DNA of 50,028 nt from assembly GCA_009602725.1 (NCBI GenBank), contig WELB01000153.1, positions 90,514 to 140,541 of the forward strand, written 5' to 3'. The stretch comes from Spirogloea muscicola. Its lineage: Eukaryota; Streptophyta; Zygnematophyceae; Spirogloeales; Spirogloeaceae. The notes beneath the pieces were generated by a model that was given only the letters and a program-made list of their open reading frames with translations, was not told where the DNA came from and did not search any database. How positions within the stretch are numbered: position 1 is the first letter of the stretch; every line of letters begins with the position of its first letter. Positions 2,045-49,208 of the stretch are shown here, one piece after another. Position numbers and translations under genes: made by a program.

Positions 2045-2117
2045 TGCGTTTTGTGCATTCTTTTTGGGCTGGCTTTTCGCAGCCCTTGCCCCCATTGGGA
2101 GTGCCACTTCTTCTGGG
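2045..2117 (+). repeat. GGGCTGGC hairpin module
   Basis: Core TTTTTGGGCTGGC, short loop, CGCAGCCC, then CCCCCATTGGGAG and a T-rich end. It lies just downstream of the last sensor exon, possibly in its intron. Confidence 0.6.
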
Positions 2118-2570: not shown

Positions 2571-2935
2571 CGCGGATACATCGCGAAAGTGAGGCGCGCC
2601 AGCTCCATGAGACGCTCCAGAGTGTCCACGGGCTTGAAGGTCACAGCATCCAATCGGGCCAGCAAAGCCACATGCTCCGGGGCCCCGGCCTTGAAACGTT
2701 GGCATTGGTCGGCGTTGTCCATTGGCTTGGAGTTGGGCAGCAGCATATGAAAGCGTCGGACGTAGTCCTCGAAGTCGTTGTTACCCATACGATCTACGTC
2801 AGACTCGTTGCGGGCGTTGAGTTCGGCATACACTTTGCCGGACATACTCGTCAAATATATCATAAATGGGTTTTCTTTGTACAATTGTTGACGAGCATGT
2901 ACGACAAAGTGCACGCCGAACATAAAAGCCCGCAA
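2571..2935 (-). pseudogene. Ty3/gypsy gag fragment, unit 1, minus arm
   Basis: Minus-strand reading contains FEDYVRRFHMLLPNSKPMD, then QRFKAGAPEHVALLARLDA and LERLMELARLTFAMYPR, a helical retrotransposon-gag segment. The same amino acid pattern recurs in the opposite orientation from 2890. The arm stops at the CGCGGATACAT motif that also ends the plus arm. It lacks the zinc knuckle. Confidence 0.7.
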
Positions 2936-3395
2936 TCAGTCGGACGTGATTCGTACTTGTAAAGAAGACTCTGAGGACTACGTCCGCCGCTTTCAGATGC
3001 TGCTTTCCAATCGCGACTCCAAGCCAGTGGACAATGCCGACCAATGACAACGGTTTAAGGCTGGGCTTCCGGAGCCTTTGGCTTTGCTGGCTCAGATTAC
3101 AGCTCATTGGATGCTGCAACCTTTAAGCCCGCAGACACGCTGGAGCGTCTCATCGCGCAGGCGCGTCTCCCTTTTACGACGTATCCGCGGAAGCATCCAC
3201 TGGCTGAGGCCGTTGTTGACCCAGCTGCACCTTTGACCTCGAAGCGCAGGCCAAGTAGTACGCCTGGTGGTAGTGCCAAGCCCCATGTTGTAAGGCAACG
3301 GCGCCCATCCTCAGCGGTGGCCTCCGTCCCCGAGGGAGATTGAGCTTGCTATCGCTGCGGCCAGAAGGGCCATCGCATCCGGGACTGTACGCAGG
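2890..3395 (+). pseudogene. Ty3/gypsy gag fragment with zinc knuckle, unit 1, plus arm
   Basis: Homologous to the minus arm (EDYVRRFQMLLSN, then DAATFKPADTLERLIAQAR) with stops and frameshifts. An intact CCHC knuckle CYRCGQKGHRIRDC (C-x2-C-x4-H-x4-C) is at 3347-3388, a nucleic-acid-binding motif typical of the gag C-terminus. Confidence 0.7.
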
Positions 3396-3899
3396 CTCCA
3401 AAGCCACCCCTCATCGAGCAAGCCTGCTCCGACAGGCCCCAAAGGGCAGAATAGAGGCAAGGGCAAACGTGAGTGACTCTCCTTTGACTCCAGTGTAGGG
3501 TCTTTGATTGCATAATGTGAATGTGCTGTAAGTTTTGGACATGCTTGTCCGCATTTTCCTATCCCAGTAGTACGCCCCCTGCAGAAGCTAATGCAGGCTT
3601 TGGTGCACGGTGGTCCCCTTGTGGTTGGGTTCGCTGCAACCAATTGCAAGCAGCTGCTTAGATGTACCTGAGTCGGGTGAATCATTATGGGGCTGACGAC
3701 CCTGTGTTTACATCGCACCATGCAGGCGAGGGTTGAAGCCTCCACCACCACCGGGGTTGTCCCCGCTCTGTCGTCGCACGGCAGGTCATCATCCCTGTTG
3801 TACCTGGTGTTGGAGGTGCACCTCGGCATCCTGGAAACTGCTCATCTACGTAGCCTGTCTTGCTTCTGTAGGCGACTTGGCACTCTGTGCTTCAACGCA

Positions 3900-3965
3900 G
3901 GTATGCTATTTACAGGACTGGCGGCTGGTCACCCAACCCAGAACTCGTAGACACCGGTTCTTGGT
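3900..3965 (+). pseudogene. Gypsy protease start, unit 1 (broken)
   Basis: Reads MLFTGLAAGHPTQ, matching the lead-in of the unit 3 protease at 7383, but a stop replaces the ILVDTGA active-site region and the sequence then switches into unit 2. Confidence 0.55.
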
Positions 3966-4230
3966 ATCTGGTGTTCTGCGAGTGCTTTGGCTGCGCCCCA
4001 TGTCAGGTACGGAGCAGCTGACCCTCAGTGGAGTCGACCGCCTTCTGGCGGTGCCTCAGGGTGAGACGCCCGCTGCGCTGTGTGTGTGTGTATGAGCTGT
4101 GTGCGCCAGCGCTCCACTCTGTAGGAGGGTTTGCGACCTTAGAGACCCCCCCATGTCCGGACCCCAGACAGGACGCTCTGACCCTGGCTGTGTGTACAGG
4201 GATCGGTCCCATCACATTGGTGTCGGAGGA

Positions 4231-4660
4231 CGCTTCTGCAGATACATCGCGAAAGTGAGACGCGCCTAATCAATCAGACTCCAGCGTGTGCATGGGCTGA
4301 AAGGTCACAACGTCCAATCGGGCCAGCAAAGCCACATGCTCCGGGGGCCCAGCCTTGAAGCGTTGACATTGGTCGGCGGAGTCTATTGGCTTGGAGTTGA
4401 ACAGCAGCATCTGAAAGCGCCGGACGTAGTCCTCGAAGTCGTTGTTACCCATACGATTTACGTCCAACTCGTTGCGGGCGTTGAGTTCGGCGTGCACTTC
4501 GCCATACATACTCGTCATAGATATCCCATTTATCGTATACTTTCGGGGTGGAGGACTTCCTGACACTGTCCCACACTGGCCACACTGCACAAACCTGGCC
4601 AACATCTAGGTGAGCCAGGCGTTGAGGCAGTGGCAGAAAACTCTCCACCCCGGGGGTTTA
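4231..4660 (-). pseudogene. Ty3/gypsy gag fragment, unit 2, minus arm
   Basis: Same gag segment as unit 1 (FEDYVRRFQMLLFNSKPID, then FKAGPPEHVALLARLDV). It reaches further toward the N-terminus, with an acidic/aromatic stretch KVYDKWDIYDEYV and an upstream MESFLPLPQRLAHLDV, so it preserves the likely gag start. The inverted arm on the plus strand begins at 4691. Confidence 0.65.
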
Positions 4661-4669
4661 CAATAAATG

Positions 4670-5265
4670 GCATATCTTCGTACGATTATTGACGAGCATG
4701 TGCGGCAAAGTGCACGCCGAATTAAAGCCCGCAATCAGTTGGACGTAATTCGTACTTGTGTAAGAAGTACTTTGAGGTCTACATCCGCCGCTTTCAAGTG
4801 CTGCTTTCAAGTGCTTTCCAAACTCGACTCCAAGCCAGTGGACAACGCCGACCAACGTCAACGATTCAAGGCTGGGCTTCCGGGGCTTTTGGCTTTGCTG
4901 GCTCAGATCACAGCTCATTGGATGCTGCAACCTTTAAGCCCGTGGACAAGCTGGAGCGTCTCCTCGGGCAGGCGCGTCTCACTTTCGCAATGTATCCGCG
5001 GAAGCGTCCATTGGCTGAGGCCGTTGTCGACCCAGCTGCGCCTTTGTCCTCGAAGGGCAGGCCAAGTAGTGAGCCTGGTGGTATTGCCAAGCCCCATGGT
5101 GTGGGGCAACGGCGCCCATCCACGGCGGTGGCCTTTGTCCCTGAATGGGATCGGGCTTGCTACCGTCGCGGCCAGAAGGGCCACCGCATCCGGGACTGTA
5201 CACAGGCTTCAAAGCCACCCCTCATCGAGCAAGTCTGCTCCGACAGGCCCCAAAGGGCAGAATAG
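4670..5265 (+). pseudogene. Ty3/gypsy gag fragment, unit 2, plus arm
   Basis: The longest open piece, 4756-5265, covers DAATFKPVDKLERLLGQAR, a Pro-rich linker and a knuckle at about 5157-5200. There the second cysteine is replaced by Arg (CYRRGQKGHRIRDC), so the finger is inactive. The upstream half is frameshifted. Confidence 0.65.
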
Positions 5266-5721
5266 AGGCAAGGGCAAACGTGAGTGCCTCTCCTTTGACT
5301 CCTGTGTGGGGTCTTCGACTGCATGATGTGAATGTGCTGTTTCGTGCTGGACATGCTTGTCCGCAGTTTCCTATCCCAGTAGTACGCCCCCTGCAGAAGC
5401 TAATGCAGGCTTTGGTGCACGGTGGTCCCGTTGTGGTTGGGCACTCTGCAACCCATTGCATCCAGCTGCTTTTATGTACCTGAGTCGGGTAAATCATCAC
5501 GGGGCTGGCGACCCTGTGTTCTTCATTGTACCGTGCAGGCGAGGACTGAATTCTCCACTACTACCGGGGCTGTCCCTGCTCTGTCGTCGCACGGCAGGTC
5601 ATCACCACGTAGTACCTGGTGTTGAAGGTTCACCTCGGCATCCTGGAAACTGCTCATCTACGTAGCCTGCAAATGCAGTCTTGCTTCTGTAGGCGACTTG
5701 GCGCTCTGTGCTTCGACGCAG

Positions 5722-5800
5722 GTATGCTATTGACAGCACTGGCGGCTGGTCACCCAGCCCAGATCCACGTAGACACCGGTGCTTGGTATCTGGTGTTCTG
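5722..5800 (+). pseudogene. Gypsy protease start, unit 2 (broken)
   Basis: Reads MLLTALAAGHPAQIHVDTGA, keeping the DTGA active-site signature of retropepsins, then leaves the protease frame and enters the start of unit 3. Confidence 0.55.
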
Positions 5801-6044
5801 TGACTGCTATGACCGAGCCCCATGTCAGCTATGGAGCCGCTGACCCCCAGTGGAGTCGACCACCTTCTGGCGGTGCCTCAGGGTAAGACGTTCGCTGCGC
5901 TGTGTGCGCGTGTGTGCGCTAGCGCTCCACTCTGTAGGAGGGTTTGCCTCAGAAACCCCCCATGTCCGGGCCCCAGACAGGACGCTCTGACCCTGGCTGT
6001 GTGTACAGGTATCGGCTCATTACATTGGTGTTGCAGGACGCTTC

Positions 6045-6340
6045 TGCGGATACATCGCGAAAGTGAGGCGCGCCAGCTCCATGATACTCTCCAGTGTGTC
6101 CACGGGCTCAGAGGTCACAAGCATCCAATCGGGCCAGCAAAGCCACATGCTCCGGGTCCCCAGCCTTGAACCTTTGGCATTGGTCCACGTTGTCCATTGG
6201 CTTGAGGTTGGGCAGCAGCATATGAAAGCGTCGGACATTGTCCTCGAAGTCGTTGTTACGCATACGATTTACGTCCAACTTGTTGCGGGCGTTGAGTTCG
6301 GCGTGCACTTTGCCATACATACTCGTCGAAGACATCATCA
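6045..6340 (-). pseudogene. Ty3/gypsy gag fragment, unit 3, minus arm
   Basis: Carries FEDNVRRFHMLLPNLKPMD and QRFKAGDPEHVALLARLDA. The bases at 6296-6327 and 6367-6398 are a 32-bp inverted pair with three mismatches, which marks the palindrome centre of this unit. Confidence 0.65.
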
Positions 6341-6359
6341 GATGTGGTTTCTTTGTAAC

Positions 6360-6990
6360 AATTGTTGACGAGCATATACGGCAAAGTGCACGCCGAACTT
6401 AAAAGCCCGCAATCAGTCGGACGTGATTCGTACTTGTAACGAAGACTTTGAGGACTACGTCCGCCCCTTTCAGATGCTGCCTTCCAAACTCGACTCCAAG
6501 CCAGTGGACAATGCTGACCAATGTCAGAGATTCAAGGCTGGGCCTTTGGCTTTGCTGGCTCAGATCACATCATGGATGCTGCAACCTTTAAGCCCGTGGA
6601 CAGGCTGGAGCGTCTAATCTGGCAGGCGCGTCTCATTTTCGCGACGTATCCGCGGAAGTTTCCATTGGCTGAGGCCGTTGTCGACCCAGCTGCGCCTTCT
6701 TCCTCAAAGTGCAGGCCAAGTAGTGAGCCTGGTGGTATTGCCAAGCCCCATGTGTGGGGCAATGGCGCCCATCCTCAGCGGTGGCCTTTGTCCCTGAGGT
6801 GGATCGAGCTTGCTACCGGTGTGGCCAGAAGGACTGTCACATCCAGGACTGTACACAGGCTGCAAGTCACCCCTCATCGAGCAAGTCTGCTCCAACCGGC
6901 CCATGGGGCAGCATAAAGGCAAGGGCGAATGTGAGTGCGTGCCTCTTTCTAACTCCTGTGTGGGGTGTTGACTGCATCATATGAAAGTGC
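6360..6990 (+). pseudogene. Ty3/gypsy gag fragment, unit 3, plus arm
   Basis: Frameshifted gag (FEDYVRPFQMLPSKLDSKPVD, DAATFKPVDRLERLIWQAR) followed by a damaged knuckle, CYRCGQKDCHIQDC, at about 6812-6855, in which the His ligand position is shifted. This arm leads without a further switch to the protease at 7383. Confidence 0.65.
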
Positions 6991-12158: not shown

Positions 12159-12239
12159 GATCATTTGGCCGAGTTGGTCTAAGGCGCCAGTTTCAGGTAC
12201 TGGTCCGAAAGGGCGTGGGTTCGAATCCCACAGTGGTCA
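12159..12239 (+). tRNA. tRNA-Leu (CAG)
   Basis: Class II cloverleaf without intron. Acceptor arms GATCATT (12159-12165) and AGTGGTC (12232-12238) pair with two G-T pairs; A at 12239 is the discriminator, as usual for tRNA-Leu. The anticodon stem CCAGT/ACTGG encloses TTCAGGT, with anticodon CAG at 12194-12196. The variable arm is 12204-12214 and the T arm is GTGGG-TTCGAAT-CCCAC (12215-12231). Internal A-box (TGGCCGAGTTGGT) and B-box (GGTTCGAATCC) sequences are intact. CCA is not encoded, as in eukaryotes. Confidence 0.93.
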
Positions 12240-14859: not shown

Positions 14860-15075
14860 GCGTCTTCCGGCCCTTAGACCTTGTCCAATCTTTTCGGGCT
14901 GGCTTTCCATTCTCCTCGCCCCCTTTGGGAAGGCCTTACGTATGCTACAAGCCGAGATGGGCAAGCGGGAAGCAATGTTTGTTCCTTTTGCGACGTCATT
15001 TGTCAGCCTGTTTGCAGCGAGCTCAGGCTCATGCTTTGCACCAAAAAGCTGGTCGAGCTCTAGCTGGTGGTACAC
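14860..15075 (+). mobile_element. Hairpin fused to family B RT tail, truncated copy
   Basis: The hairpin module at 14860-14935 (TTTTCGGGCTGGCTTTCCA, then CTCGCCCCC) runs directly into CTACAAGCCGAGATGGGCAAGC and a reading RRHLSACLQRAQAHALHQK. The latter is the conserved C-terminal part of the family B RT seen at 48700-48950. The copy stops before the stop codon and the next composite starts about 90 bases on. Confidence 0.65.
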
Positions 15076-15164: not shown

Positions 15165-15540
15165 GTCTTAGCGTCTTCCAGCCCTTTGCACCTTGTCCGA
15201 TTGATTCGGGCTGGCTTGCCACACTTCTCGCCTCCTTTGGAAGGGCGTACTTATGCTTCAAGTCGAGATGGGCATGCGGGAACCTATGATTATTGTCTTT
15301 GCAACGTCATCTGTCACTCTGTTTGCAGCGAGCTCAGGCTCATGCTTTGCACCAGAAAGCTGGTCGAGATCTAGCTGGTGGTAAAAGGCCTTGTCATCTG
15401 CCGTCCCGTATGTGGCCATCAGTTTGTGACCTCTACGTGCTGACGCGTGGTTACTGAGCGGGTCAGCTCAGCAGCAGGTGATGTACATCTGTTGATAGGT
15501 TTGCCTTTGTACTTAAGACCACTCAGGCCCTCTATCAGGC
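15165..15540 (+). mobile_element. Hairpin fused to family B RT tail with 3' UTR
   Basis: Module 15165-15245, then RT tail 15246-15455 ending SVCDLYVLTRGY and TGA, then the family B 3' UTR (GCGGGTCAGCTCAGCAGCAG, TTGCCTTTGTACTT). It has the same hairpin-to-tail junction as at 19605 and 34590. The 5' lead-in (CACAATG...CAACACCTGT...GGTCTTAGCGTCTTCC) is also shared. Confidence 0.7.
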
Positions 15541-20256: not shown

Positions 20257-20625
20257 TGTGGGGAGTCGACAAATCCAATCACCAGTTATACGTTTGCCAC
20301 CTCCATGTCATCTGTCACTACCTTGCCAATATCACTGCGCTACTCTGGTTCGGGCTTGCATTGGACTGTTCTGCCTGCCACGTAGACCCTGACACGTCAC
20401 TCCTCTGTACTGCAATCTGACCCATCGACGTCGTATGGTGATTGACGTTCTTTGGCATGACACTTGGCAATACTTGACGTGTGGTCCGCCCGCAATCTCG
20501 AGGGACGCGCGTGCCGTCTGCAGCCGGAAGCCCGCTGGCCACGCGGCAAGCGCGGCCGGGGGGGCTTCACCCCGCGGTGGTCCCTATCGTCCGGCACGTG
20601 GCTGGCCCGGGCGGCCTCGAGAGTG
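20257..20625 (+). repeat. D block, copy 2, interrupted by a family A RT tail
   Basis: Collinear with 16610-16930 as far as GGCGGCCTCGAGAGTGCC, where an RT tail begins. The continuation of the block (GAGGGAG.AGGAA) appears only after another family member at 21380-21430. Confidence 0.55.
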
Positions 20626-20629
20626 CCCT

Positions 20630-21146
20630 GGGTATGCGGTCGCCTGCGCCGCTCGGGCAAAAGAGATCAAGTACGCCGACCATCCGCGGAAGACGAGTTC
20701 TTCCCGTTGGCAATTGACATCCATGGGGCACTGGGCGCTCGGTGGCTTGAGCTACTTAACCAGCTCGCCCGCCACGCAATCGCCCGTCGCTTCCATGGTG
20801 AACCGGTAGGACTTTCCTGCAGCCGGGTCGCTGGCGCAAGTGTATCGCATGCGCTTGGCCGTCTCGCTGCAGAGTTCCATGGCCCGTGCGCTGCACCTTC
20901 GTGCCGGACGAGCCCTCGCTGCTGCCTCTGGCTCTGTCCAGGGGACCCACTTCCAGGACCCTAGCCTCTCTGATTTGCGGCTGCTTAGCAGGGGTTACTG
21001 AGTACTTTGTAGCTGCTTTCTTTCTTTGTGTGCTTTGGTTTCTTAGCGCTTCCTCTGGCTTCCTCTGGCCCCCTTCTCGTTCTTTGTTCATTCTTTTTTG
21101 GGCTGGCTTGTCCAGCCCCTATCCTCAATGGGCGAGCCCTTTCTTT
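20630..21146 (+). mobile_element. 5'-truncated family A non-LTR copy with 3' UTR
   Basis: Homology starts sharply at the codons for GYAVACAARAKEIKYADHP, the Lys/Tyr motif of the restriction-like endonuclease, and runs to SLSDLRLLSRGY and TGA at 20999-21001. At least two frameshifts lie between. The 3' UTR follows, with hairpin GGGCTGGC-TTGTCCAGCCC and the end AATGGGCGAGCCCTTTC. Confidence 0.85.
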
Positions 21147-25505: not shown

Positions 25506-25535
25506 GCTTAGCGCTTCCTCTGGCTTCCTCTGGCG
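25506..25535 (+). repeat. Scrap of plus-strand family A 3' UTR
   Basis: GCTTAGCGCTTCCTCTGGCT and the following CTCTGGC match the early 3' UTR of family A on the plus strand, then break off where the minus-strand element ends. The two are therefore opposed tail to tail. Confidence 0.5.
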
Positions 25536-25545
25536 AAAGAAGAAA

Positions 25546-25661
25546 GTGCTCGCCCATTGAGAATAGGGGCTGGAACAACCAGCCCGAAAAAGAATGAACA
25601 GAGTACGAGAAGGGGGCCAGGGGAAGCGCTAAGTAACAGAAACAAAGCTGCTACGAGACAC
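25546..25661 (-). mobile_element. 3' UTR and terminal hairpin of the full-length family A element
   Basis: Directly follows the RT stop. On the minus strand: a purine/pyrimidine-mixed ~60 bases, CATTCTTTTTCGGGCTGGTT, GTTCCAGCCCC, TATTCTCAATGGGCGAGC. GGGCTGG and CCAGCCC form a 7-bp stem. This is the reference copy for the hairpin modules listed elsewhere. In R2-type elements the 3' UTR structure is what the RT binds to start target-primed synthesis; that role is inferred here. Confidence 0.8.
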
Positions 25662-29561: not shown

Positions 29562-29616
29562 GGCAGGCGCCGCCGGCGACGGCGCCGGCGGCGGCCCGGG
29601 GTTTAAGAGGGGTGGC

Positions 29617-29693
29617 GGCCCCTTCTCGTTCTTTGTTCATTCTTTTTTGGGCTGGCTTGTCCAGCCCTTATCCTCAATGGGCGAGCCCTTTCC
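29617..29693 (+). mobile_element. Family A 3' end opposed to the RT gene 5' end
   Basis: CCCCTTCTCGTTCTTTGTTC, TTTTTTGGGCTGGCTTGTCC, AGCCC and the AATGGGCGAGCCCTTTCC end, on the plus strand. Together with 25546-25661 it places the element between inverted 3' ends. No RT codons precede it, so it is UTR only. Confidence 0.8.
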
Positions 29694-29695
29694 TT

Positions 29696-29830
29696 TACCC
29701 TGGCGGGCGCTCCGGGCGTTGCGCCCTGAACCCCGGCGGTGCTGGCGGGCGCTCGCGCGTTCAGCAGCGTCGCGCGCTTTCGGGATGTGTACCCTAAATC
29801 GTGAACCCTACATCGTAGATATTTAGAGGT
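29696..29830 (+). repeat. GGGCGTTGCGCCC repeat with telomere-like end
   Basis: Shares GGGCGTTGCGCCCTGA, CAGCGTCGC, TTTCG and GTACCCTAA with 47865-47955. It then reads AACCCTACATCGTAGATATT and an AGAGGTTACTGAGT that resembles an RT C-terminus and stop. Confidence 0.5.
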
Positions 29831-30365: not shown

Positions 30366-30583
30366 GGCGGAATCTACCCAGCAGGCTCTCTGGCGTGTAT
30401 CGCATGCGCCTGTCAGTCTTGCTGCAGCGGTCAATGGCACGCGGGTTGCACCTGCGTGCTGGTTGGCATTGGCTGCCGCCTCTGAAATGGACGCTTACAG
30501 GAGAGGGGCCCTGGCCAGGGTACTCGCTATTGGAAACTAGATTCTCCTCCGTCCTGCGGCTGCTTAACAGGGGTTACTGAGTG
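30366..30583 (+). mobile_element. RT tail fused downstream of a hairpin module
   Basis: Codons for VYRMRLSVLLQRSMARGLHL, then ... FSSVLRLLNRGY and TGA. The tail starts about 40 bases after the preceding hairpin, in the same orientation. A normal 3' UTR with the next module (30635-30705) follows. Confidence 0.7.
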
Positions 30584-30634
30584 CTTTCGTGGCTCCTTGG
30601 TTCCCTGTGTGCTTAAGCGCTTATCTGGCTCCTT

Positions 30635-30905
30635 CGAATTTGGCTCTTTCAATTTCTGGGCTGGCCTCTCACAGCCACCGCCCTCTCCTGGAAGCGTCTT
30701 CTCATGAAAGCCGGTCCCTTCAATACTAGTATCCTATCTGTTGCGCCATCCGGCCCTTTCAGATCTTGTCCATTACTTTGGTCTGGCCTCTCACAGCCAT
30801 TGCTGTCAATCTGGAAGAGCTACTTCTTATTTCAGACCTTGTCCATTCCTTCGGGCTGGCCTCTCACAGCCATTGCTGTGTATTCGGAGAGCTGTCTTCG
30901 AGAAA
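30635..30905 (+). repeat. Three hairpin modules in a row
   Basis: Cores at about 30657 (TTTCTGGGCTGGCCTCTCAC), 30780 (GGTCTGGCCTCTCACAGCCA) and 30853 (TTCGGGCTGGCCTCTCACAG), each followed by AGCCA(C/T)(C/T)GC and a GGA/GAG-rich end. No RT tail separates them, so 3' ends are stacked head to tail. Confidence 0.65.
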
Positions 30906-30906
30906 G

Positions 30907-31075
30907 AAGGATCTCTACGAAGAGGGCAATGGCTGTGACTGGCCAGCCCAGACAAAGAAAGAATAGTTGTCGTAGGGGCAAGGAAAAGAGAAGTTGCTCT
31001 TCTGAAGGAGGCAGGGCTGTAAACAGCCAGCCCGGAAAGAATTGACAAGATCCGTAGGGGCCAAAAGCACTGTCT
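30907..31075 (-). repeat. Two hairpin modules, minus strand
   Basis: The minus strand gives CTGGGCTGGCCAGTCACAGC (30925-30955) and TTCCGGGCTGGCTGTTTACA (31015-31050). The left one mirrors the plus module at 30830-30905 across a centre near 30903. The right one is the 3' UTR of the RT copy at 31085. Confidence 0.65.
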
Positions 31076-31084
31076 CAGAGCTTT

Positions 31085-31740
31085 GGTGGGATTGATCACT
31101 TGGTAACTACGAGTGAGGAGTCGCAAATCGACATACCAGCGGCCGGAAAGCAACCCCCCTGAAGAAAGCCAGAGGCTGCAGCTAAAGCACGGCCAGCACG
31201 CGGTGCAAGGCCTGGGCCATGGACCGCTGGAGGAAGATAGAGAGGCGGATCCGACAGACCTAAGCTGGCGAGCCAGCGGCGCTGAAGTCAGCCAGCTCAC
31301 CTTGCCTGCGGGACACAGCGGGGCGCGCAAACCGGGCCAACAGGTCGAGCGACTGGGAGCCGAAAGCCCCGCGCACATCCATGGCCAGGGGTACAAACTC
31401 GTCCCCTGCCGGGTGGTCTGCATAGTTCGTCGCCTTGCTGCGAGCGGTTGTGCCGCAGCATGGCCAGCCCTCGAGGCAGGAATCCCGAATTGGAACGGTC
31501 CACCACAACAGCGGCGATGACGGGCGAACCGGCCTCCCAGCGTAATGGCCACAAGTCGACGCGCCTGTGTGCAGTCAATCCGCCTTCTGCAAGATAGGCA
31601 TCATGGACGTATTCTCCAGCGCCAGAGTGTACCCAGCCTCCAGGAGAATGCCGAACATGGCACATTCCTGAGGAAATCATGGGCAGCAGTGCGCCCGCCT
31701 CCAGTTGCGCACCTCGGGAAGCGCGAGACCGCCTGCTGCC
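31085..31740 (-). pseudogene. 5'-truncated family C non-LTR RT copy
   Basis: Minus-strand frames give AGYTLALENTSMMPILQKAD, HRRVDL, ADHPAGDEFVPLAMDVRGAF and SQSLDLLARFARPAVSRRQG, then the SLQRSMA-type tail. It is the endonuclease half, homologous to 44379-45203. Frameshifts and stops are present; the tail lacks a clean LLTR-Y ending. Confidence 0.7.
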
Positions 31741-35352: not shown

Positions 35353-35354
35353 CT

Positions 35355-37800
35355 CGACTTGTGGTCGATCCACAGGGTTGCAAGATCTTCAGTGAAGATG
35401 GAGAGGTGGCTGCCGTGGGGGAGAGGAGTGGTGGACTCTGCTGGCTTGTGGCTGAGGCCTTGATGTTGGGAAGTCAATGCAACGTGGCGGTGGCAAACAA
35501 GAACGACAACCTGCAGCTGTGGCATCGCAGGCTGGGACATCTGCATGGTAATACTATCAACGAGATGGTCAAACAAACAGCTGTGAGTGGGTTGGCGCTT
35601 GGAGTTGATGGTCATGCTTAAGTTTTGTGAAGGGTGTGTGCTTGGGAAGCAGCATCGAAGTCCCTTTTCTGCAGGGGGAGGCAAGAGAGCAAGCAGTCTT
35701 TTGGAGTTGGTGCACACAGATGTATGGGGTCCAGCGCCAGTTCCATCACTTGGAGGTGGGAAGTACTTTGTGACCTTCATTGACGACATGTCACGGAAAT
35801 GTTGGTGCTACATACTCAAGGAGAGGTCGAGTGTGTTCCAAATCTTCCAGAGGTGGCGGGCTGGAGTAAAAAAGCAGTCGGAAGATCGGTGAAGGTGCTT
35901 CGCTCCGAAAATGGTAGGGAGTACGTGTCCAACGAGTTCGAGACCTTACTGGCTTGAGAGGGGCATCAAGCATCAGCGGACGGTACCATGTACTCCCAAA
36001 CAGAATGGCGTTGCTGAGATCATGAACAGGACCTTGCTAGAGGCTGCGAGGTATATGCTTCAGGAGAGTAGACGACCTAATAGTTATTGGGGTGAAGCTG
36101 TGTGTACGGCAGCGTATCTGCGAGCAAGATGTCCAACAAGGGCAGTGCTGGGGAGAACGCCGGAAGAACTGTGGACGGGTAGAAAGCCAGATATCTCACA
36201 TCTGAGAGTCTTCGGGTGAAATGTATATGTGCACAAGCCCATAGAGTTGCGTAACAAACTGGATCCCAAGAGCACCAGGCCATCTTCGTGGCGTACGATG
36301 CAGACATGAAGGGGTACAGAATGTTGGATCCTGCAAGCAAGCGCATTGTGCTTAGCAGAGATGTCATCTTTGATGAAAGTGTCATCTTTGATGAAAGTTG
36401 GCGTAGAAGTGAGAATGCTGCAGCAGAGTAGAGGATCACATTGCAGTTGGAGCTAAGGCCTACTATGCTTGACTCTAAAGAGCCTGTCTTGTGTGAGATG
36501 AAGATGAAGACTCGGAGGATGTCGATAGGCAAGAGCAGTCACTGATACCGTCGCAGAACTTCGAGGAGGAGGAGGGGCGCAGCAACAGCAGATTGGAGAG
36601 GAAGAACAGCTAGAAGAAGAGCAGCCACATCCGCAGCCACAGCAGCAGCTTAGAAGGAGCACAAGAACGAGACAGGTTAGGGAGGACCCTGCATACTTCT
36701 TTGGTTTTGCAGCTACCGTAGACCAACCGCTGACCACGGCGTAGGCAAGGCAGAGGGTGGATGCTGCGCAGTGGGAGTTAGCCGCGGCTGAAGAGATGCG
36801 TTCCATTGAAGAAAACAAGACGTGGGAAATTGTTGACTTGCCACCAGGGAGGAGGGCGATTGGATGCAAGTGGGTGCTTCGGCAGAAGCGAGGCGCAGAT
36901 GGGGAGGTTGTAAGATATAAGGCAAGGCTGGTCGCAAAAGGTTTTCACAGGTCGCAGGGATCGACTATGAAGAGACCTTTGCACCGGTGGCCAAGTACAC
37001 TTCCACTAGTGTTGTTGAGCTTAGCTGCAGTCACGAAGTTTTCAGATGGATGTAAAGACAGCCTTTCTGAATGGAGACTTGGAGGAGGAGATCTTCATGC
37101 AGCAGCCGGAGGGATTCATTGACAATTAGCAGCCAAGCAAGGTCTATCATCTGAAGAAGCCTCTGTACGGGTTGAAGCAAGCTCCACGAATGTGGAACCA
37201 CAAGATTATTGGCGTGCTAAAGGAGGCAGGATTTGTGAGATGCGCTAGCGATACGAGCATATACGTCTTGCAGAAGCCAGCACAGCCTGTGGTGCTGTTG
37301 GCTTTGTATTCTGATGATCTGCTCATACTCAGCCCTACTCTGGAGAGTGTCGATAGGGTGAAGGGGTTGCTGTGCAGCAAATTCAAGATGTCAGACCTTG
37401 GGGAGGTGTCCAACCTGCTGGGCATGCAGGTGGTGAGGGATAGAAGGCAAAGGACTATCAAATTGGGACAGGTCAACTTTGCTGAGCAGGTGCTGCAACA
37501 CTTTGGGATGGAGACAAGCAAGCCAGTTTCTACCTCTATGGAGCTCAAGCAGGCCTTATCAAAGGAACAAGAGCCACAAACAGTGCCGGAGGAGGAGGAG
37601 ATGGCAGGGAGTCCATACCAGCAAGCAGTGGGGAGTCTTATGTATCTCATGACAGGAACCAGGCCAGATCTTGCGGCAGCAGTGGGAGCAGTGAGCCAGT
37701 TCTTTCAGCGGCCTGGGTTGGCTCATTGGCAAGCAGTCAAACGGATCTTCAGGTACTTGGCCGGGACAACCAATACATGGCTCGCGTTGTCGCGTTCGGC
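35355..37800 (+). pseudogene. Ty1/copia pol, plus-strand copy, 5'-truncated
   Basis: Domain order: GAG pre-integrase (LQLWHRRLGHLHG, FCEGC; 35500-35640), integrase core (HTDVWGPAPVP near 35715, FIDDMSRKCWCYI), integrase C-terminal linker (NRTLLEAARYMLQ, 36020-36220), Gln/Glu-rich spacer, RVT_2 RT (GCKWVLRQKRGADGEVVRYK near 36860; LYSDDLLIL near 37304-37330, where YVDD has become YSDD) and the RNase H lead-in (GSLMYLMTGTRPDLAAAVGA). Several stops and frameshifts. gag and protease are missing at the left end, and RNase H is cut at a palindrome centre near 37810. Confidence 0.85.
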
Positions 37801-37814
37801 GGAGAGAGTGATCT

Positions 37815-38566
37815 GCTGCAACGCTCTCCAGCGACCAAAAGAACGCGAGCCATGTATTGGTTGTCTCGGCCAAGTACCTGAAGATCCGTTTGACTGCTTG
37901 CCAATGAGCCAACCCAGGCCGCTGCATGAACTGGCTCACTGCTCCCACTGCTGCCGCAAAATCTGGCCTGGTTCCTGTCATGAGATACATAAGACTCCCC
38001 ACTGCTTGCTGGTATGGAACCCCTGCCATCTCTTGCGGCAGCTGGGAGCAGTGAGCCAGTTCATGCAGCGGATGAAGAAGCATATGAAGCAGCCAGAATA
38101 GATGGCATAGAACGAGACGACCTGGGAGGCCCCTATCCTGTGAGAGAGTCGGGGCCCAGTTTCCATTCGAAGCTGATGCAGAAGCAGATGAGGCAGTCAG
38201 AGCAGGTGGCATGGAACGAGACGACCTGGGAGGGCCCCTATCCTTTGGGAGGGAGTTCAGGGCCCGCGTTCTTTCGGTCGCTGGAGAGTGTGGCAGCAGA
38301 TCACTCTTTTCGCCGAACGCGAGCCAGGTATTCGTTGTTCCAGCCAAGTACCTGAAGATCCGTTTGACTGCTTTCCAGTAAGGCACCCCAGGCCGCTGCA
38401 TAAACTGGCTTACTGCTCCCACTGCTGCTGCAAGGTCAGGCCTTGTTCCTGTCATAAGATACATCAGGCTTCCCACAGCCTGTTGATATGGAACCCCTGC
38501 CATCTCCTCCTCTTCCTTCACAGTTTGTGGCTCTTGCTCCTTTGACAAGACCTGCTTGAATTCCAT
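37815..38566 (-). pseudogene. Copia RNase H lead-in, rearranged minus copies
   Basis: The minus strand carries GSLMYLMTGTRPD twice (near 38490 and near 37990), each followed by AAAVGAVSQFMQRPG and KRIFRYLAGTTNTWLAF or its variant. Short plus-strand pieces of the same region lie between (38010-38340). The segment is a set of small alternating inversions of one ~250-bp region. Confidence 0.65.
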
Positions 38567-40179
38567 TGGGGTTGAAATTGGGTTGGGTTCTCCATCCCAA
38601 AGCGTTGCAGCACCTGCTCAGCGAATTTAACCTGTCCCAATTTGATGCTCCTCCGCCTTCTGTCCCTAACCACCTGCATACCCAGCAGATAGGACACCTC
38701 CCCAAGGTCTGACATCTTGAACTTGCTGCACAGCAAACCCTTCACCCTGTCGACAGTCTCCAGACTAGGACTGAGTTTGAGCATATCATCCACGTAGAGG
38801 GCCAACAGCACCACAGGCTGTGCTGGCTCCCGCAGCACATAAACGCTGGTGTCGCTGGTGCATCGGGCGAATCCTGCCTCCTTCAACATGTCATTGATCT
38901 TGTGGTTCCACATGCGAGGGGCCTGCTTCAATCAATACAGAGATTTCTTCACAAGACAGACCTTGCTTGGCTGCTGATTGTCAATGAATCCCTCCGGCTG
39001 CTGCATGAATATCTCCTCCTCCAAGTCGCCATTCAGAAAGGCCGTCTTTACATCCACTTGGTGAACTTCGAAGTCCTGGCTCGCAGCTAAGCTGAGTAAC
39101 ACTCGAATAGAGGTGAACTTGGCGACCGGTGCGAAGGTCTCGTCATAGTCAATTCCTGTGACCTGTGAAATTCCCTTTGCCACCAACGATACTTTATATC
39201 TGACAACCTCCCCATCTGCACCTCGCTTCTGCCGAAGTACCCACTTGCACCCAATTGCCTGTCTCCCTGGTGGCAAGTCAACAAGTTCCCACGTCTTGTT
39301 CTCTTCAATGGACCGCATCTCTTCAGCTGCGGCTAACTCCCACTGCGCAGCATCCATCCTCTGCCTTGCCTGCGCCATGGCCAGAGGTTCGTCTACGGTA
39401 GCTGCAAAACCAAAGACGTATGCAGGGTCCTCCCTGACCTGTCTCGTTCTTGTGCTCCTTCTAAGCTGCTGCTGCGGTTGCAGTTGTGGCTGCTCTTCTT
39501 CTTCACCCTGCTGTTGCTGCACCTCATCCTCCTCTTCGTCCTCGATATTCTGCGATGGCATCTGTGACTGCTCTTGCCTATCGATATCCTCCTTGTCTTC
39601 ATCTTCATCTCCGCACAAGACAAGCTCTTCAGAGTCAAGCATAGCAGGCCTTTGCTCCCACTGCAATATGATCCTCTCCTCTGCTGCAGCATTTTCACTT
39701 CCACGCCAACTTTCATTGAAGATGACATCTCGGCTAAGTACAATGAGCTGGCTTGCAGGATCAAACATTCTATACCCCTTTGTATCAGCATCATAACCTA
39801 CAAAGATGGCCTTGGTCTTCTTGGGTTCTAATTTGTTGCGCAACTCTATGGGCTTGTGCACATACGCGGTACAACCAAAGACTCTCAAATGTGAAATGTC
39901 TGGCTTCCCCCCCGTCCACAGTTCTTCTGGCGTTGTCCCCTGCACTGCCCTCGTTGGGCACCTGGCTCGCAGATACGCCGCCGTGCAAACAGCTTCACCC
40001 CAATAGCTATCAGGTCGTCTACTCTCCTGAAGCATACATCTTGCAGCCTCCAGCAAGGTCCTGTTCATGCGCTCAGTCAGCCACGCCATTCTGCTGCGGG
40101 GTATACGGTACCGTCCGCTGATGCTGGATGCCTTCTCAAGCCAGAAAGTTCTCAAACTCATTGGACACGTACTCGCCAC
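38518..40179 (-). CDS. Ty1/copia integrase end and reverse transcriptase, minus-strand element
   Basis: Two nearly continuous frames. 38932-40179 holds the integrase C-terminal region (MNRTLLEAARCMLQESRRPD, PTRAVQGTTPEELW), an acidic/Gln-rich linker and the RVT_2 start (GCKWVLRQKRGADGEVVRYK, DYDETFAPVAKFTSIRVLLS, first catalytic Asp in [10 protein letters not shown]). A single TGA at the usual LYG-LKQ position separates it from 38518-38931, which continues LKQAPRMWNH to LYVDDML (canonical YVDD) and LLGMQVV. A frameshift near 38575 follows. This is the better-preserved copia pol but is not functional as read. Confidence 0.85.
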
Positions 40180-41040
40180 CGTTGTCAGAGCGAAGCACCT
40201 TCACCAGTCTTCCCGCTTGCTTTTCTACTCCAGCACGCCATCTCTGGAAAATCTGAAATACACTCGACCTCTCCTTGAGTATGTAGCACCAACATTTCCG
40301 TGACATGTCGTCGATGAAGGTCACAAAGTACCTCCCACCTCCAAGTGATGGAACTGGCGCTGGCCCCCAGACATCTGTGTGCACCAACTCCAAAAGACTG
40401 CTTGCTCTCTTGCCTCCCCCTGCAGGAAAGGACTTCGATGCTGCTTTCCAAGCACACACCCTTCACAAAATCTAAGCTGACCATCAACTCCAAGCGTCAA
40501 GCCACTCACAAGCTGTTCTTTGACCATCTCCTTGAGAGCTTCACCATTCAGATGTCCCAGCCTGCGATGCCACAGCTGCAGGTTGTCGTTCTTGTTCGCC
40601 ACTGCCACATTCCATTGACTTCCCGACATCAAAGCCTCACCCACAAGCCAGCAGAGTCCACCACTCCTCTCCCCCACGGCAGCCACCTCTCCAGCTCTAC
40701 TGAGGATCGTGCAGCCCTGTGGATCGAACACCAGTCGAAGCTTCTGACTGTTGAGGCTGTTCTCAGACAAGAGATTTCTAGCCAAACGAGGAACATGGAG
40801 GACATCCTGCAAAGGGATCTTCAAAGTCTTGCCAGCAACTTGAGCAACTATGTCCACCGAGTCCTTCCACACAGCAACTGTGGCAGTATTGTTTCCAAAC
40901 AAGACACGGCAATTCTTGACCTTGACCTTATACTCTCGTAACCACTCCCTTCTGCAAGTCATGTGTGCACTTGCTCCTGAGTCAACCAGCCATGAGTGGT
41001 ATCCACGAGTTTCTGAACATGTTTCACCTGTTGCTGCGGA
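40136..41040 (-). CDS. Copia protease, GAG pre-integrase and integrase core, minus-strand element
   Basis: From right to left: protease signature SWLVDSGASAHMTC (about 40965-41005), a long beta-rich segment, GAG pre-integrase (LWHRRLGHLNGEALKEMV, FCEGCVLGKQHRSPF) in the frame 40321-40962, and after a frameshift near 40430 the integrase core HTDVWGPAPVPSLGGGRYFV and RSDNGGEY. Together with 38518-40179 and 41690-42460 it forms one element, interrupted by an inverted insert at 41049-41669. Confidence 0.82.
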
Positions 41041-41058
41041 GTAGAAAGTGCTGGTGTG

Positions 41059-41659
41059 TGGTGGACTCTGCTTTCTTGTGGGTGAGCCTTTGATGTCGGG
41101 AAGTCAATGCAATGTGGCGGTGGCGAACAAGAACGACAACCTGCAGCTGTGGCATCGCAGGCTGGGACATCTGAATGGTGAAGCTCTCAAGGAGATGGTC
41201 AAAGAACAGCTTGTGAGTGGCTTGACGCTTGGAGTTGATGGTCAGCTTAGTTTTTGTGAAGGATGTGTGCTTCAAAAGCAGCATCGAAGTCCCTTTCCTG
41301 CAGGGGGAGGCAAGAGATCAAGCAGTCTTTCGGAGTTGGTGCACACAGATGTCTGGGGGCCAGCGCCAGTTCCATCACTTGGAGGGGGGAGGTACTTTGT
41401 GACCTTCATCGACGACATGTCACGGAAATGTTGGTGCTACATACTCAAGGAGAGGTCGAGTGTATTTCAGATTTTCCAGAGATGGCGTGCTGGAGTAGAA
41501 AAGCAAGCGGGAAGACCGGTGAAGGTGCTTCGCTCTGACAACGGTGGCGAGTACGTGTCCAATGGGTTTGAGAGCTTTCTGGCTCGAGAAGGCATCCAGC
41601 ATCAGCGGACGGTACCGTATACCCCGCAGCAGAATGGCGTGGCTGAGCGCATAGGAAAT
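41059..41659 (+). pseudogene. Inverted copia pre-integrase/integrase segment inserted in copia
   Basis: Open from GGLCFLVGEPLMSGSQCNVA through LWHRRLGHLNGEALKEMVKE, FCEGC and HTDVWGPAPVPSLGGGRYFV to RSDNGGEYVSN and PQQNGVAERI. It opposes the host element. The flanks share TGCTGGTGTGT (41049-41059 and 41659-41669; 14 of 16 bases over a wider span). The host gene reads smoothly from zinc knuckle to protease if the segment and one flank are removed. Confidence 0.78.
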
Positions 41660-42755: not shown

Positions 42756-43104
42756 GCTCGGCCATTGAGGATAGGGGCTGGAACAGCCAGCCCAAAAAAG
42801 AATGAGCAGAGTACAAGAAGCCCAAGAAGAAGGGGGCCAGGCGAAGCACTAAGGCGAAGCACTAAGAAAGAAGCACACACGAAGAAACAAAGCAGCTACT
42901 AACTACTCAGTAACCCCTGCTAAGCAGTCGCAGGTCAGAGAGGCTATGTTCCTCCTTGGCTTCCTCTGGCCCCCTTCTCGTTCTTTGTTCATTCTTTTTT
43001 GGGCTGGCTTGTCCAGCCCCTATCCTCAATGGGCGAGCCCTTTCTTCTATGTTCCTGGAAGGACGTCCCCTGGCCAGAGCCAGAGGCAAGCCCCTCCAGC
43101 CCCT
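42756..43104 (-). mobile_element. Family A tail and 3' UTR, split by a 93-bp insertion
   Basis: Minus strand: RT codons LASGSGQGTSFQ (43104-43057), interruption, then SLSDLRLLSRGY and TGA (42943-42908), then the 3' UTR with hairpin to 42756 (AATGGCCGAGC). Apart from the insertion the tail is in frame. Confidence 0.82.
42954..43046 (+). mobile_element. 93-bp family A 3' end with exact 10-bp target duplication
   Basis: CCTTGGCTTCCTCTGGCCCC through TTTTTTGGGCTGGCTTGTCC to AATGGGCGAGCCCTTTCTT. Flanked by CTATGTTCCT at 42944-42953 and 43047-43056. It contains no protein-coding sequence at all and defines the exact 3' terminus of family A RNA. Confidence 0.9.
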
Positions 43105-43624: not shown

Positions 43625-43870
43625 GAAAGGAAGAGCTCTCCCATTGAGGATTGGGGCTGGAACAGCCAGCCCAAAAAAGAATGGACAAAGTACGAGAAGG
43701 GAGCCAGGGGAGCGCTAAGAAAAACAAGCACAAGAAGAAACAAAGCAGCTACGAATGACTGAGTAATTCCTGCTGAGCAGCCGCAGTTCAGAGATGCTAG
43801 GGTCCTGGAAGTGGGTCCCCTGGACAAAGCCAGAGGCAGCAGCTAGGGCTCTTCCGGCACGAAGGTGCAG
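43625..43870 (-). mobile_element. 5'-truncated family A tail with 3' UTR
   Basis: The tail begins at codons for LHLRAGRALA(A) near 43865 and ends near 43766 with a changed end (the reading is QQE instead of SRGY). The 3' UTR hairpin is at 43650-43680. It abuts the composite at 43612 head to tail. Confidence 0.75.
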
Positions 43871-44235: not shown

Positions 44236-44378
44236 AGAAGTGGCACTCCCAATGGGGGCAAGGGCTGCGAAATGCCAGCCCAAAAAGAATTCACAAAGGT
44301 TCAGAGGGGCCTAAGAGCGGTGAGCAGCTACAAAGGGGCCTGAGGATGCTATAGTAAAACAGGGGGAGGATGGATCAG
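44236..44378 (-). repeat. 3' UTR and hairpin of family C RT copy
   Basis: Follows the stop at 44379. The minus strand gives TTTTTGGGCTGGCATTTCGC, AGCCCTTGCCCCCATTGGGA and GTGCC, almost the same end as the module at 2045-2117. Confidence 0.72.
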
Positions 44379-45203
44379 TCAGTAATTACGAGTGAGGAGT
44401 CTCAGATCCGACAGACTAGCTGCCGGGAAGCTATCACCCTGACGAAAGCCAGAGCCCGCAGCGAGAGCACGGCCAGCTCGCAGATGCAGAGCGTGGGCCA
44501 TGGAGCACTGCAGGGATACAGAGAGGCGCATCCGGTAGACCTGAGCCCACGAGCCAGCGGCGTTGAAGTCGGCTGGCTCGCCGCGTCTGCGGGACACAGC
44601 CCGCCGCGCAAGCCTAGCCAGCAAGTCAAGCCACTGGGACCCAAGAGCCCCGTGTACGTCCACCGCCAAGGGGACGAACTCGTCGGCAGGTGGGTGGTCG
44701 GAGTGCTTGGCCGCCTTGCAGCGAGCGGCCTTCGAGGCAGCGTGGCTTGCCCGCGAGGCAGAGAGCCCCAGGTTGGAGCGGTCGACCACATCGGTGGTGA
44801 CTACATCGGCTATGATCCGCGCGCCACCTCCCGGCGTGGACGCCACCAGGTCAACACGACGCGTATGGTGTCCGTCAGCCCTCTCGAGGATGGGCATGAC
44901 CGAGGCGTTCTCCTTCGCCACCGTGTAGCCCGCCTCCTGAAAGATCCCGAACATAGCATCACGCAAGAGGTCGTGCGCAGCTGTTCGTTCGCCTCTAGTG
45001 GCGCAGCGGAGGAGATGCGCCGCCAGCTCCGCCGGGTCCGTCGACCGCTCCCCACATTTGCACTGCAGCACGCCCAGCACGCAGGGCGGGGGGAGGCCCA
45101 GCACGCGATGCGTGGCCGTGCGGAACAGCTCGTCCGGCAGCCTGAGCGCATCATACAGTGGGAGCGCAGAGAGCCAGGCTGCCGCGCCGGGGGAGGCGGC
45201 CGA
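44379..45203 (-). pseudogene. 5'-truncated family C non-LTR RT copy, endonuclease half open
   Basis: Frame open from the N at 45204 to SLSDLRLLTRNY and TAA/TGA at 44379. CKCG-x12-H-x3-C knuckle, HHTRRVDLVASTPGGGARII, ADVVTTDVVDRS, KAAKHSDHPPADEFVPLAVD: the same endonuclease layout as family A (about 60% identical by eye). Only the C-terminal ~270 residues are present, without RT. The left part is intact, which suggests recent arrival or an assembly break at the N. Confidence 0.78.
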
Positions 45204-45448: not shown

Positions 45449-45509
45449 GGCCCCCTATTCTTTTTTGGGCTGGCTTTTCCAGCCCCTATCCTCAATGGGC
45501 GAGCCCTTC
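45449..45509 (+). repeat. Family A hairpin end fused upstream of a truncated RT copy
   Basis: CCCCCTATTCTTTTTTGGGC, TGGCTTTTCCAGCCCC and AATGGGCGAGCCCTTC, then RT codons start at once. The preceding ~80 bases resemble the family G block (GCGGTGCACTTTC). Confidence 0.82.
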
Positions 45510-46916
45510 TTGGACGATATGCAGCTGTCATTGGCCATGTTGACCAAGGCTATCGGGCAGCGGCCCCAGTACTTGACGCGGGCCACCCCGCCGTCCCCAG
45601 AGGCGTTGGCGGTGTACAAGGCCTTCGACGCCGGCATGGTGGCGAGCTTGGCGGCCCTGGTCCGCCACCTGGGCTTCCTACGGTCGCCAGCCGCTATCCA
45701 CCAGGCGGCGCTACCCCTCAGCCACGGCGGTCTCGGCCTGCGCCCGCTCGTCCGCTCTTGCAGGGCTGCATATCTCGGCAGCTGGGCGCAGACTGCCGCC
45801 TCCGTGGCCCAGCGCTTCATCGTCCACGGCCGGCGTGCACTGGAGCAGGCGGTGGTGGAGGTTGACACGGGCGCGCTGCCGTTCCAGGAGTCGCTTCGCA
45901 CCGCCCACCAGGAGCTGATCGCGGCGCACCCGGACCTGGCCGGCCAGGCGGTCTCCTTTGCGCACCTCGCGCACACCGCTGACCTGCGGGTCCAAGCGCG
46001 CTTCGCGGCCGTGGTCGACAAGGCCGCTTACACCACCGCCGTGCTGCAGCTCCCCGAGGCCGACCTGCGCGGGCGCGCGAGACTCCACTCGGCCGCTTCC
46101 CCCGGGGCAGCGGCGTGGCTCCAGGCCCTCCCACTCAACGACGCCCTCGCCCTCCCGGACGAGGTATTCCGGAGTGCCGTCCACAGGCTCCTCGGCCTGC
46201 CGCCGCCATGCCTCCAGGGCGTGCGTCAATGTGAGTGTGGTGAGCGCGGGGCCGAGCAGGGGGAGCTGGTCGCTCACGTTCTGCGCTGCTCGCACGGCGG
46301 AGAGCGGACAGCGGCCCATGACCGCCTCCGGGACGCAATGCACGGCATCCTGGTGGAGGCTGGCTTCTCTGTGGCAGCGGAGCACTCTGGGATCATGCCG
46401 CTCCAGGACAGGGCCGACGGTCTCCACGCCCGTCGTGTGGACCTGGTGGCCACCCCACAGGTCGGCGGGCCACGTCTCCTCCTGGACGTGGTGACTACCG
46501 ACGCATTCGACCGATCCCACCCAGCCCAGTGTGCAACCAAGCCTGGGTATGCGGTCGCCTGCGCCGCTCGTGCCGAAGAACTCAAGTACGCAGACCATCC
46601 GCCAGCTGACGAGTTCTTCCCGCTGGCCATCGACACACACGGGGCGTTGGGTGCTCGGTGGCTCGAACTGCTCCACCAGCTTGCCCGTCACGCCGTCGCC
46701 CGCCGCTTCCATGGGGAGCCGGTGGACTTCCCTGCAGCTGGGTCGCTCGCCCAGGTGTACCGCATGCGCCTGGCCGTCTCGCTGCAGAGGTCAATGGCCC
46801 GTGCGCTGCACCTGCGTGCCGGCCAAGCCCTCGCTGCTGCCTCTGGCTCTGGCCAGGGGACATACTTCCAGGAGCACAGTCTCTCTGACCTGCGACTGCT
46901 TAGCAGGGGTTACTGA
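45510..46916 (+). pseudogene. 5'-truncated family A RT copy, open C-terminal half
   Basis: Aligns with residues ~833-1299 of the intact protein with roughly 90% identity and no frameshift: LDDMQLSLAMLTKAIGQRPQ, CECG...H...C knuckle, ARRVDLVA, LLLDVVTTDAF, AARAEELKYAD (Lys1187 is Glu here), to SLSDLRLLSRGY and TGA. An in-frame ATG inside the hairpin part (45447) keeps the whole 489 codons open. It could express an endonuclease domain without RT, but the lost Lys would need testing. Confidence 0.85.
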
Positions 46917-47073
46917 GTGATTAGTAGCTGCTTTGTTTCTTCTTGTGTGCTTGTCTTTCTTAGTGCTTCACCTAAGTGCTTCGATTAGCCCCCTTCTTGA
47001 ACTGTGTTCATTCTTTTTCTTGGGCTGGCTGTTCCAGCCCATGTCCTCAATGGGCGAGCCCTTTCTTTCTTCT
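46917..47073 (+). mobile_element. 3' UTR of the 45510-46916 copy
   Basis: CTTGGGCTGGCTGTTCCAGC, CC and AATGGGCGAGCCCTTTCTTT. Same length and order as the reference 3' UTR. Confidence 0.82.
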
Positions 47074-49030: not shown

Positions 49031-49208
49031 CACTGTATACACACTCTTATTCCAATAGTCTTTCTGACTTGCGGCTGCTAAGAGTCACTAAGTATATATC
49101 CACCATGGTACACGCGTAAATATGTGTTTAAGAGCTCTTTTGACCTTCTCCAATCTTCTTGGGCTGGCCTTTCACAGCCACTGCCTCAAATTGGACAAGC
49201 TGTTCTTT
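49031..49208 (+). mobile_element. Family D RT scrap, 3' UTR and hairpin module
   Basis: SLSDLRLL codons at 49057-49080, CCATGGTACACGCGTA, then the module 49126-49208 (TTCTTGGGCTGGCCTTTCAC, AGCCACTGCCTC, AATTGGACAAGC). Same order as 30205-30365. Confidence 0.62.

Follow-up and report, generated by a model that had tools for sequence, protein, structure and literature searches.

A module of about 60 nt, recurring throughout a 50,028-nt stretch of Spirogloea muscicola DNA (the window, by which the whole of that stretch is meant), is very probably the 3'-terminal recognition tail of R2-like LINEs of the restriction-like endonuclease (RLE) type, inherited with these elements and occasionally swapped among them. 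The sequence-only reading of the window had described the module as a 3' hairpin shared by several retrotransposon families. This observation is confirmed, and the parts of its interpretation that concern a common tail and exchange between families hold as well; the covariation that it named as a check and the SINE/LINE system to which it likened the case are not supported. The case is one of stringent-type, RLE-type LINEs, whose parts follow known LINE biology and whose traits are combined in one genome.

With thousands of exact tails, reverse transcriptase (RT) lineages from 100% down to ~35% identity, readable boundaries of hundreds of young insertions, and mosaic copies, the genome amounts to a natural experiment, one that bears on how an R2-like RT chooses its template: how stringent it is about the tail, where its cDNA stops, and whether it copies across families. 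R2-type enzymes also attract attention as tools for inserting genes, where a start signal that is short and defined by its sequence would be useful.

Element A and its R2-like protein

The index copy of the module, at the place 25546-25661 singled out by the sequence-only reading, lies in the 3' UTR of element A and is its tail (Table 1). The terminus of this element, GAGCACTTTCTTC, is the same in other family-A copies that reach that end, and the element as a whole is inserted into an older, oppositely oriented module of the A' type. The N-terminus of its protein is proline-rich and contains CCHH/CCHC-like fingers; reverse transcriptase occupies aa 576-804 (PF00078, E 7.9e-16). The closest PDB relatives of the RT are three R2 proteins, at E about 1e-6 with phmmer and 3e-8 with a profile, the R2-like sequence similarity being confined to the RT core. 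Closer to the C-terminus, residues C1072, C1074, H1087, C1091, D1142, D1157 and K1187 are invariant in five copies, and this CxC...HxxxC plus D-D-K arrangement resembles the motifs of a restriction-like endonuclease. A predicted model of the C-terminal region has low confidence (mean pLDDT 45); its seven best PDB matches are all R2 proteins, with E values from 0.002 to 0.45 and none at or below 0.001.

Judged by its sequence, element A is an RLE-type LINE of the R2 group in the broad sense, with a putative endonuclease. It is not R2 proper. It is not filed there because single-site specificity was tested and was not found: rather than occupying a single 28S rDNA site, 100 young tails among the matches listed are spread along contigs C1-C10, and young tails have differing flanks and target duplications. 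With R2 (9nl3, 9nl2, 9dou, 8gh6, 8ibz) the elements have in common an RT domain and a C-terminal endonuclease-like region within one ORF, N-terminal zinc-finger-like motifs, and 5' truncation; unlike R2, which is tied to one rDNA site, they show dispersed insertions with short target duplications. Other RLE clades, each with its targets, are NeSL, Utopia, R4, HERO and CRE, HERO being mostly non-specific according to the part of PMC4640811 used here. The present elements share the RLE type with these clades (PMC4640811, same part) and are classified at the level of the type, not of a clade.

The modules of the window

An iterated nucleotide HMM, started from five copies, finds 35 modules in the window, laid out as a lead-in, GGGCTGGC...CAGCC and then a GGGNGAGC end, and it finds none in ten first-order Markov copies of the window. 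The earlier estimate of more than 30 copies in 50 kb is thus borne out, and all 16 of the places that had been named lie within 25 nt of an HMM module. The GGGCTGGC arm is present 36 times, compared with a mean of 5.8 and a largest count of 13 in 100 shuffles. A covariance model built from 28 window modules returns 33 matches at E<=1, of which the weakest (49914-49976, E 0.32) is unconvincing. The stem had been ascribed to every named copy. Among these copies the CAGCC arm is absent, with GGGCTGGC present, from five modules of the D type (14873, 15185, 19542, 34221 and 34526), module 21925 has CAATC in place of CAGCC, and module 30311 is a half copy. Because the five D-type copies and 21925 have no matching 3' arm, the named stem cannot form there, and the word hairpin is inapplicable to them. 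(The DNA downstream of the D-type modules was considered as a separate target sequence, a candidate that was dropped when this DNA proved to be an RT C-terminus.)

Table 1. Element A, its surroundings and representative modules of the window
Feature	Position	Strand
Free module; upstream DNA without RT or A/B 3' UTR similarity	2050..2104	+
D-type module without CAGCC arm; the D repeat also contains an RT C-terminus, 15311-15454	14873..14934	+
A'-type module behind RT relic 20597-20998(+)	21077..21137	+
Left part (cttagcgcttcctctggcttcctctgg) of the older module split by element A; placed by eye	25507..25533	+
Element A 3' UTR and tail; terminus ...GAGCACTTTCTTC, then unrelated flank	25540..25661	-
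Index module, element A 3' tail; GGGCTGGTTGTTCCAGCCC gives a 7-bp stem and 5-nt loop	25548..25608	-
Element A ORF, single, 1,299 aa	25662..29561	-
Element A 5' UTR, truncated, abutting the older module; placed by eye against other copies	29562..29618	-
Older A'-type module, right part, orientation opposite to element A	29619..29694	+
Module behind RT relic 30386-30577(+); more modules after it at 30758 and 30831	30633..30694	+
Module behind broken RT relic 31108-31714(-), the main piece of which is about 46% identical to A	30996..31055	-
A'-type module, no RT code directly upstream; 90 nt identical to 21056-21145	42978..43038	+
Module behind RT relic 43763-43822(-)	43635..43695	-
Module behind RT relic 44382-45176(-), 65% identical to A	44243..44302	-
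Module with truncated RT copy 45504-46913(+) directly after it	45457..45504	+
Module behind 5'-truncated RT copy 45504-46913(+), 90% to A	46997..47059	+
Module behind RT relic 48112-48943(+), about 35% identical to A	49138..49199	+
Module behind RT relic 49417-49569(-), 63% identical to A across 51 aa	49286..49346	-

Sense code for an RT C-terminus lies within 700 nt upstream of 17 of the 35 modules; 3 have antisense RT code only, and the other 15 have none that is detectable in either orientation within 700 nt. For 13 of the 35, sense RT code is also found on the downstream side within 700 nt, because the copies are nested. With RT code on both sides, it is the typical spacing between stop codon and module, often 50-100 nt, that carries the argument and not mere proximity.

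Conservation of the tail across RT lineages

The RT C-termini that bear the tail span 100% to ~35% identity (those preceding modules in the window are 90%, 65%, about 46% and about 35% identical to that of A), and the C-terminal 260 residues of A, B and the copies C115, C411 and C295 are 59-89% identical to those of A or among one another. Across 255 distinct modules, a set that leaves out the exact young A and B tails, the columns of the stem are 94-99% one letter, with the partner in the outermost pair at 67%, and the columns neighbouring the stem are mostly 44-96% conserved. These comparisons uphold two earlier claims, namely that the module follows the stop codons of several RT families and that the RTs have diverged far more than the module has.

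A conserved 3'-terminal stem-loop sequence common to several elements is the feature of stringent-type LINEs, and it is found here. As described in the part of PMC4176376 used here, the RT of such LINEs recognises a 3' stem-loop common to the LINE and its partner SINEs, and R2Bm and R2Dm are counted among the LINEs that need their 3' UTR. The present elements resemble UnaL2 and ZfL2-1/2 in that the members of a group have at their 3' end a common, conserved stem-loop sequence of the kind thought to be the start signal for the RT (PMC4176376, same part). They differ from UnaL2 and ZfL2-1/2, which are of the CR1/L2 type and often have partner SINEs (PMC4176376, same part), in that the RT, which would recognise the tail, is R2-like and in that no partner SINE was found among the 279 modules whose upstream DNA was clustered.

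The check on compensatory changes that the sequence-only reading had proposed gives a negative answer, as covariation is seen neither in the inner stem, whether in the 28 window modules or in the 255 distinct modules, nor in an outer stem. For the six core pairs of the inner stem, the 255 modules contain 2 both-sided changes, where independence would predict about 3.2; all six pairs are intact in 129 modules and at least five in 216. The outer stem, which the folded A tail suggests and which would join the lead-in to the AATGGG end, is 71.4% paired versus 71.4% expected, and RNAalifold predicts no pair on A1. Because there is little variation in the arms, and because most of the copies are dead, the missing covariation is weak evidence either way. 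The A tail (101 nt, z -2.39) and the B tail (141 nt, z -2.44) fold better than their shuffled versions; four other tails do not (z -0.51, +0.99, +0.70 and -0.51). What is conserved, then, is the tail sequence, and its action as a folded RNA structure is plausible.

Abundance in the genome

The genome searched comprises 153.1 Mb in 471 contigs; high GC and the presence of CCCTAAA-like stretches may point to a green alga. Exact matches to GGGCTGGCN5CAGCC number 9,161, versus 1 for the control, with the proviso that forms having a TTTG or AAAG loop may count on both strands; TTCTTTTTNGGGCTGGC occurs exactly 3,582 times and its reversed control 0 times. There are 1,230 exact young-A tails, 118 B tails and 596 A' tails. 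A search with the RT gave 39 matches, from the best 36 of 30,197 candidates scored, and among the matches listed are 12 copies at 100% (10 of them over the whole protein), one group at ~90%, six copies at 68% (family B) and one at 64%. The tails behind these genome-wide RT ORFs read the same as those of the window. A profile search with PF00078 yielded at least 150 scored matches, and the related-locus search found no relatives in viral or prokaryote contigs.

The density of modules in the window is ordinary, not special: 29 arbitrary stretches elsewhere hold 28 modules in 46,973 non-N bases (0.60/kb), compared with 0.70/kb in the window. Since these 28 modules are confined to 9 of the 29 stretches, of which only 21 have more than 500 readable bases and many are partly or wholly N, a genome total of about 10^5 copies would be a rough extrapolation.

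Structure of young insertions

Insertions were delimited in two sets. Set 1 consists of 60 stretches around young A and B tails, with 63 insertions (43 A, 20 B), of which 52 were resolved, 4 being dropped for a 5' end outside the stretch and 7 for N; set 2 consists of 40 further stretches around A tails, with 45 insertions, 38 resolved and 7 dropped. Both are the first places listed, mainly on contigs C1-C18, and so are a non-random sample.

The insertions have a common 3' boundary, with a T/C-rich end (TTCTTC), and variable 5' ends, which in young copies vary continuously; a fixed 3' end together with 5' truncation is the signature of target-primed reverse transcription. The 75 resolved insertions of family A are 31-476 nt long, 14 of them at most 60 nt and 58 at most 200 nt, with a median of 127 nt that is biased downward because eight A insertions whose 5' end lies outside the fetched stretch were left out. 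In the same vein, the 1,230 exact young-A tails stand against only 12 copies that are 100% identical and full length or nearly so, among the best 36 of the 30,197 candidates.

Under a strict rule, target duplications of at least 5 bp (range 5-17 bp) flank 19 of 52 insertions in set 1 and 14 of 38 in set 2, whereas mismatched flanks in set 1 give a mean of 3.2 per 52 and a maximum of 10 in 300 trials. About two thirds of the insertion sites have no clear target duplication. A C precedes the duplication in 17 of 19 cases and a T begins it in 15 of 19 (set 1), the corresponding counts in set 2 being 11 and 12 of 14; mismatched flanks already have 52% C and 61% T at these positions, so the excess of this target motif is moderate. 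A preference for A/T at the next target base, seen in 19/19 cases of set 1, was discarded when it was not repeated in set 2 (7/14).

The free modules resemble insertions of these same LINEs with extreme 5' truncation, and target-primed insertion with very early arrest would produce them without any SINE. A pathway can be proposed on this basis. The RT-endonuclease would bind the tail in the RNA and nick the DNA, frequently at a CT identical to the final letters of the tail; target-primed reverse transcription would then start at the nick, and synthesis would usually stop within a few hundred nt, leaving stumps of 31-480 nt that resemble the free modules. The families would retain the tail because their RTs need it, and the tail would thus change far less than the protein.

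Exchange of tails between lineages

The proposed pathway would also have RT bodies gain, now and then, the 3' end of another lineage, whether through DNA recombination or through a switch of template once synthesis has started. Eight divergent RT-bearing copies were examined (L044, L166-L172), and two of them are clear mosaics. Copy C135 matches A at 100% for about 2 kb and at 80-93% from there to its end, and B-like modules are the closest match to its last ~86 nt (94%); it reads as an A body joined to the 3' half of another lineage, B-like in those last ~86 nt. Copy C295 is 100% identical to copy C18 up to a point about 150 nt short of the stop, after which identity runs 95, 93, 83 and 67% per 60 columns (the hairpin itself is at 92%); the final 200 nt of C295 are 95% identical to the window module region 43627-43824. 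This copy reads as a C18-identical body carrying the last ~250 nt of another lineage. The exchange between families that had been suggested earlier has therefore occurred at least twice. A third copy, C71 (L168), may also be a mosaic, as it is about 97% identical to C295 up to its last ~1.2 kb, where identity drops to about 85%.

The mosaics would fit either recombination at the DNA level or a template switch made once synthesis had begun on another RNA. A bolder version, less likely than not, treats the module as a common currency: any of these RTs would start on the RNA of any family via the common module, the cDNA would then jump to the RNA of another family, and RT bodies and 3' ends would assort freely. 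Were this true, C135 and C295 would be direct products of the process, and the 3' end of each would mark the RNA that was primed first.

A precedent for part of this behaviour is BLAG of the German cockroach, which is R2-like, non-site-specific and randomly dispersed, with a recombination event reported (PMC7650587, in the part used here). The present elements are likewise R2-like and dispersed and include mosaic copies; BLAG differs in having an animal host, and its abstract mentions no tail common to several families (PMC7650587). A literature search in which all terms were required jointly gave no match for the system described here, which is no proof that it is unpublished.

Alternative origins of the nested and free modules

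The nesting of copies could reflect an enzyme that prefers the tail DNA of older copies as its target, in the manner of Zepp, and in this way builds nested arrays of high density. This explanation, which is unlikely, was initially favoured. Element A of the window sits inside an older module, single insertions into the hairpin loop are seen (L068, L080), and in set 1 a module lies within 40 bp of 26 of the 52 insertions, versus 12.4 expected when points offset by 120-420 bp within these loci are taken instead (0 of 5,000 trials reached 26). However, at that radius, fixed beforehand for replication, set 2 gives 12 of 38 versus 10.2 expected (p 0.30); a radius of 20 gives 6 versus 7.4, and only a radius of 60 reached p 0.04 (18 versus 12.9). 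Moreover, the copies are dispersed along whole contigs. Because the replication failed, self-targeting is not claimed. Nesting and 5'-truncated arrays are described for Zepp (PMC8226300, in the part used here), and like Zepp and the Zepp-like LINEs of green algae the present copies are nested, mostly 3'-end fragments and frequently 5' truncated. Unlike Zepp, which is L1-type and centromere-clustered, they are R2-like and dispersed, and their preference for existing copies was not replicated (for both comparisons, PMC8226300 and PMC3446292, in the parts used here).

The sequence-only reading had likened the case to a SINE/LINE tail-sharing system; in such a system, short non-autonomous elements with 5' heads of their own would be moved by the RT of A or B. 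This is decidedly improbable. The 15 of 35 window modules that lack RT code of either orientation within 700 nt would suit such a system, as would the unrelated upstream DNA of 43 of 279 modules (singletons) when the upstream sequences are clustered. In the same 279 modules, though, 192 have RT code or an A/B 3' UTR upstream, and there is no upstream cluster of at least three loci lacking similarity to RT or an A/B 3' UTR. The abundant A' tail (596 exact copies) also terminates the RT-bearing copy C18, and the continuous variation of young-copy 5' ends likewise speaks against separate elements with heads of their own. The absence of a recurrent non-RT family with the tail applies to a sample of loci centred mostly on young A/B tails and to single-linkage clustering that placed 221 modules in one cluster, a bias and a coarseness by which a small SINE family could be hidden.

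That the module is a host sequence (a structural RNA, a satellite or some other target) into or beside which unrelated elements insert can be dismissed, since nothing beyond abundance favours it, no Rfam family besides two tRNAs is found in the window, the module follows RT stop codons and lies inside each insertion with the target duplications outside it, and young insertions bring the module to sites that had none.

Other features of the copies and of the window

A few further observations concern the flanks of the copies and the surrounding DNA. Three A copies (C66, C453 and C135, with 5' flanks L026, L028 and L030) have a common upstream stretch, which consists of the 3' end of another A copy and a spacer of about 230 nt, and are divergent further upstream; the pattern is suggestive of 5' transduction, with retrotransposition of transcripts that read through a tandem pair. 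The copies C20 and C338 have 5' flanks (L021, L024) that are alike over the whole ~700 nt and 3' flanks (L001, L004) that differ, a pattern attributable to recombination, duplication or transduction.

Within the window, nested fragments of the Copia type (RVT_2) occupy 35354-41646 in both orientations, with large inverted repeats, and three long direct repeats, 62-90% alike and spaced about 1.65-1.8 kb apart, lie in 2615-6865. The two tRNA genes, the window's sole Rfam families, are a tRNA-Leu (CAG) at 12159-12239(+) and a tRNA-Ser (AGA) at 49620-49701(-). Degenerate short stretches of the telomere type, resembling CCCTAAA, occur near modules at 29785-29830 and just upstream of 48009.
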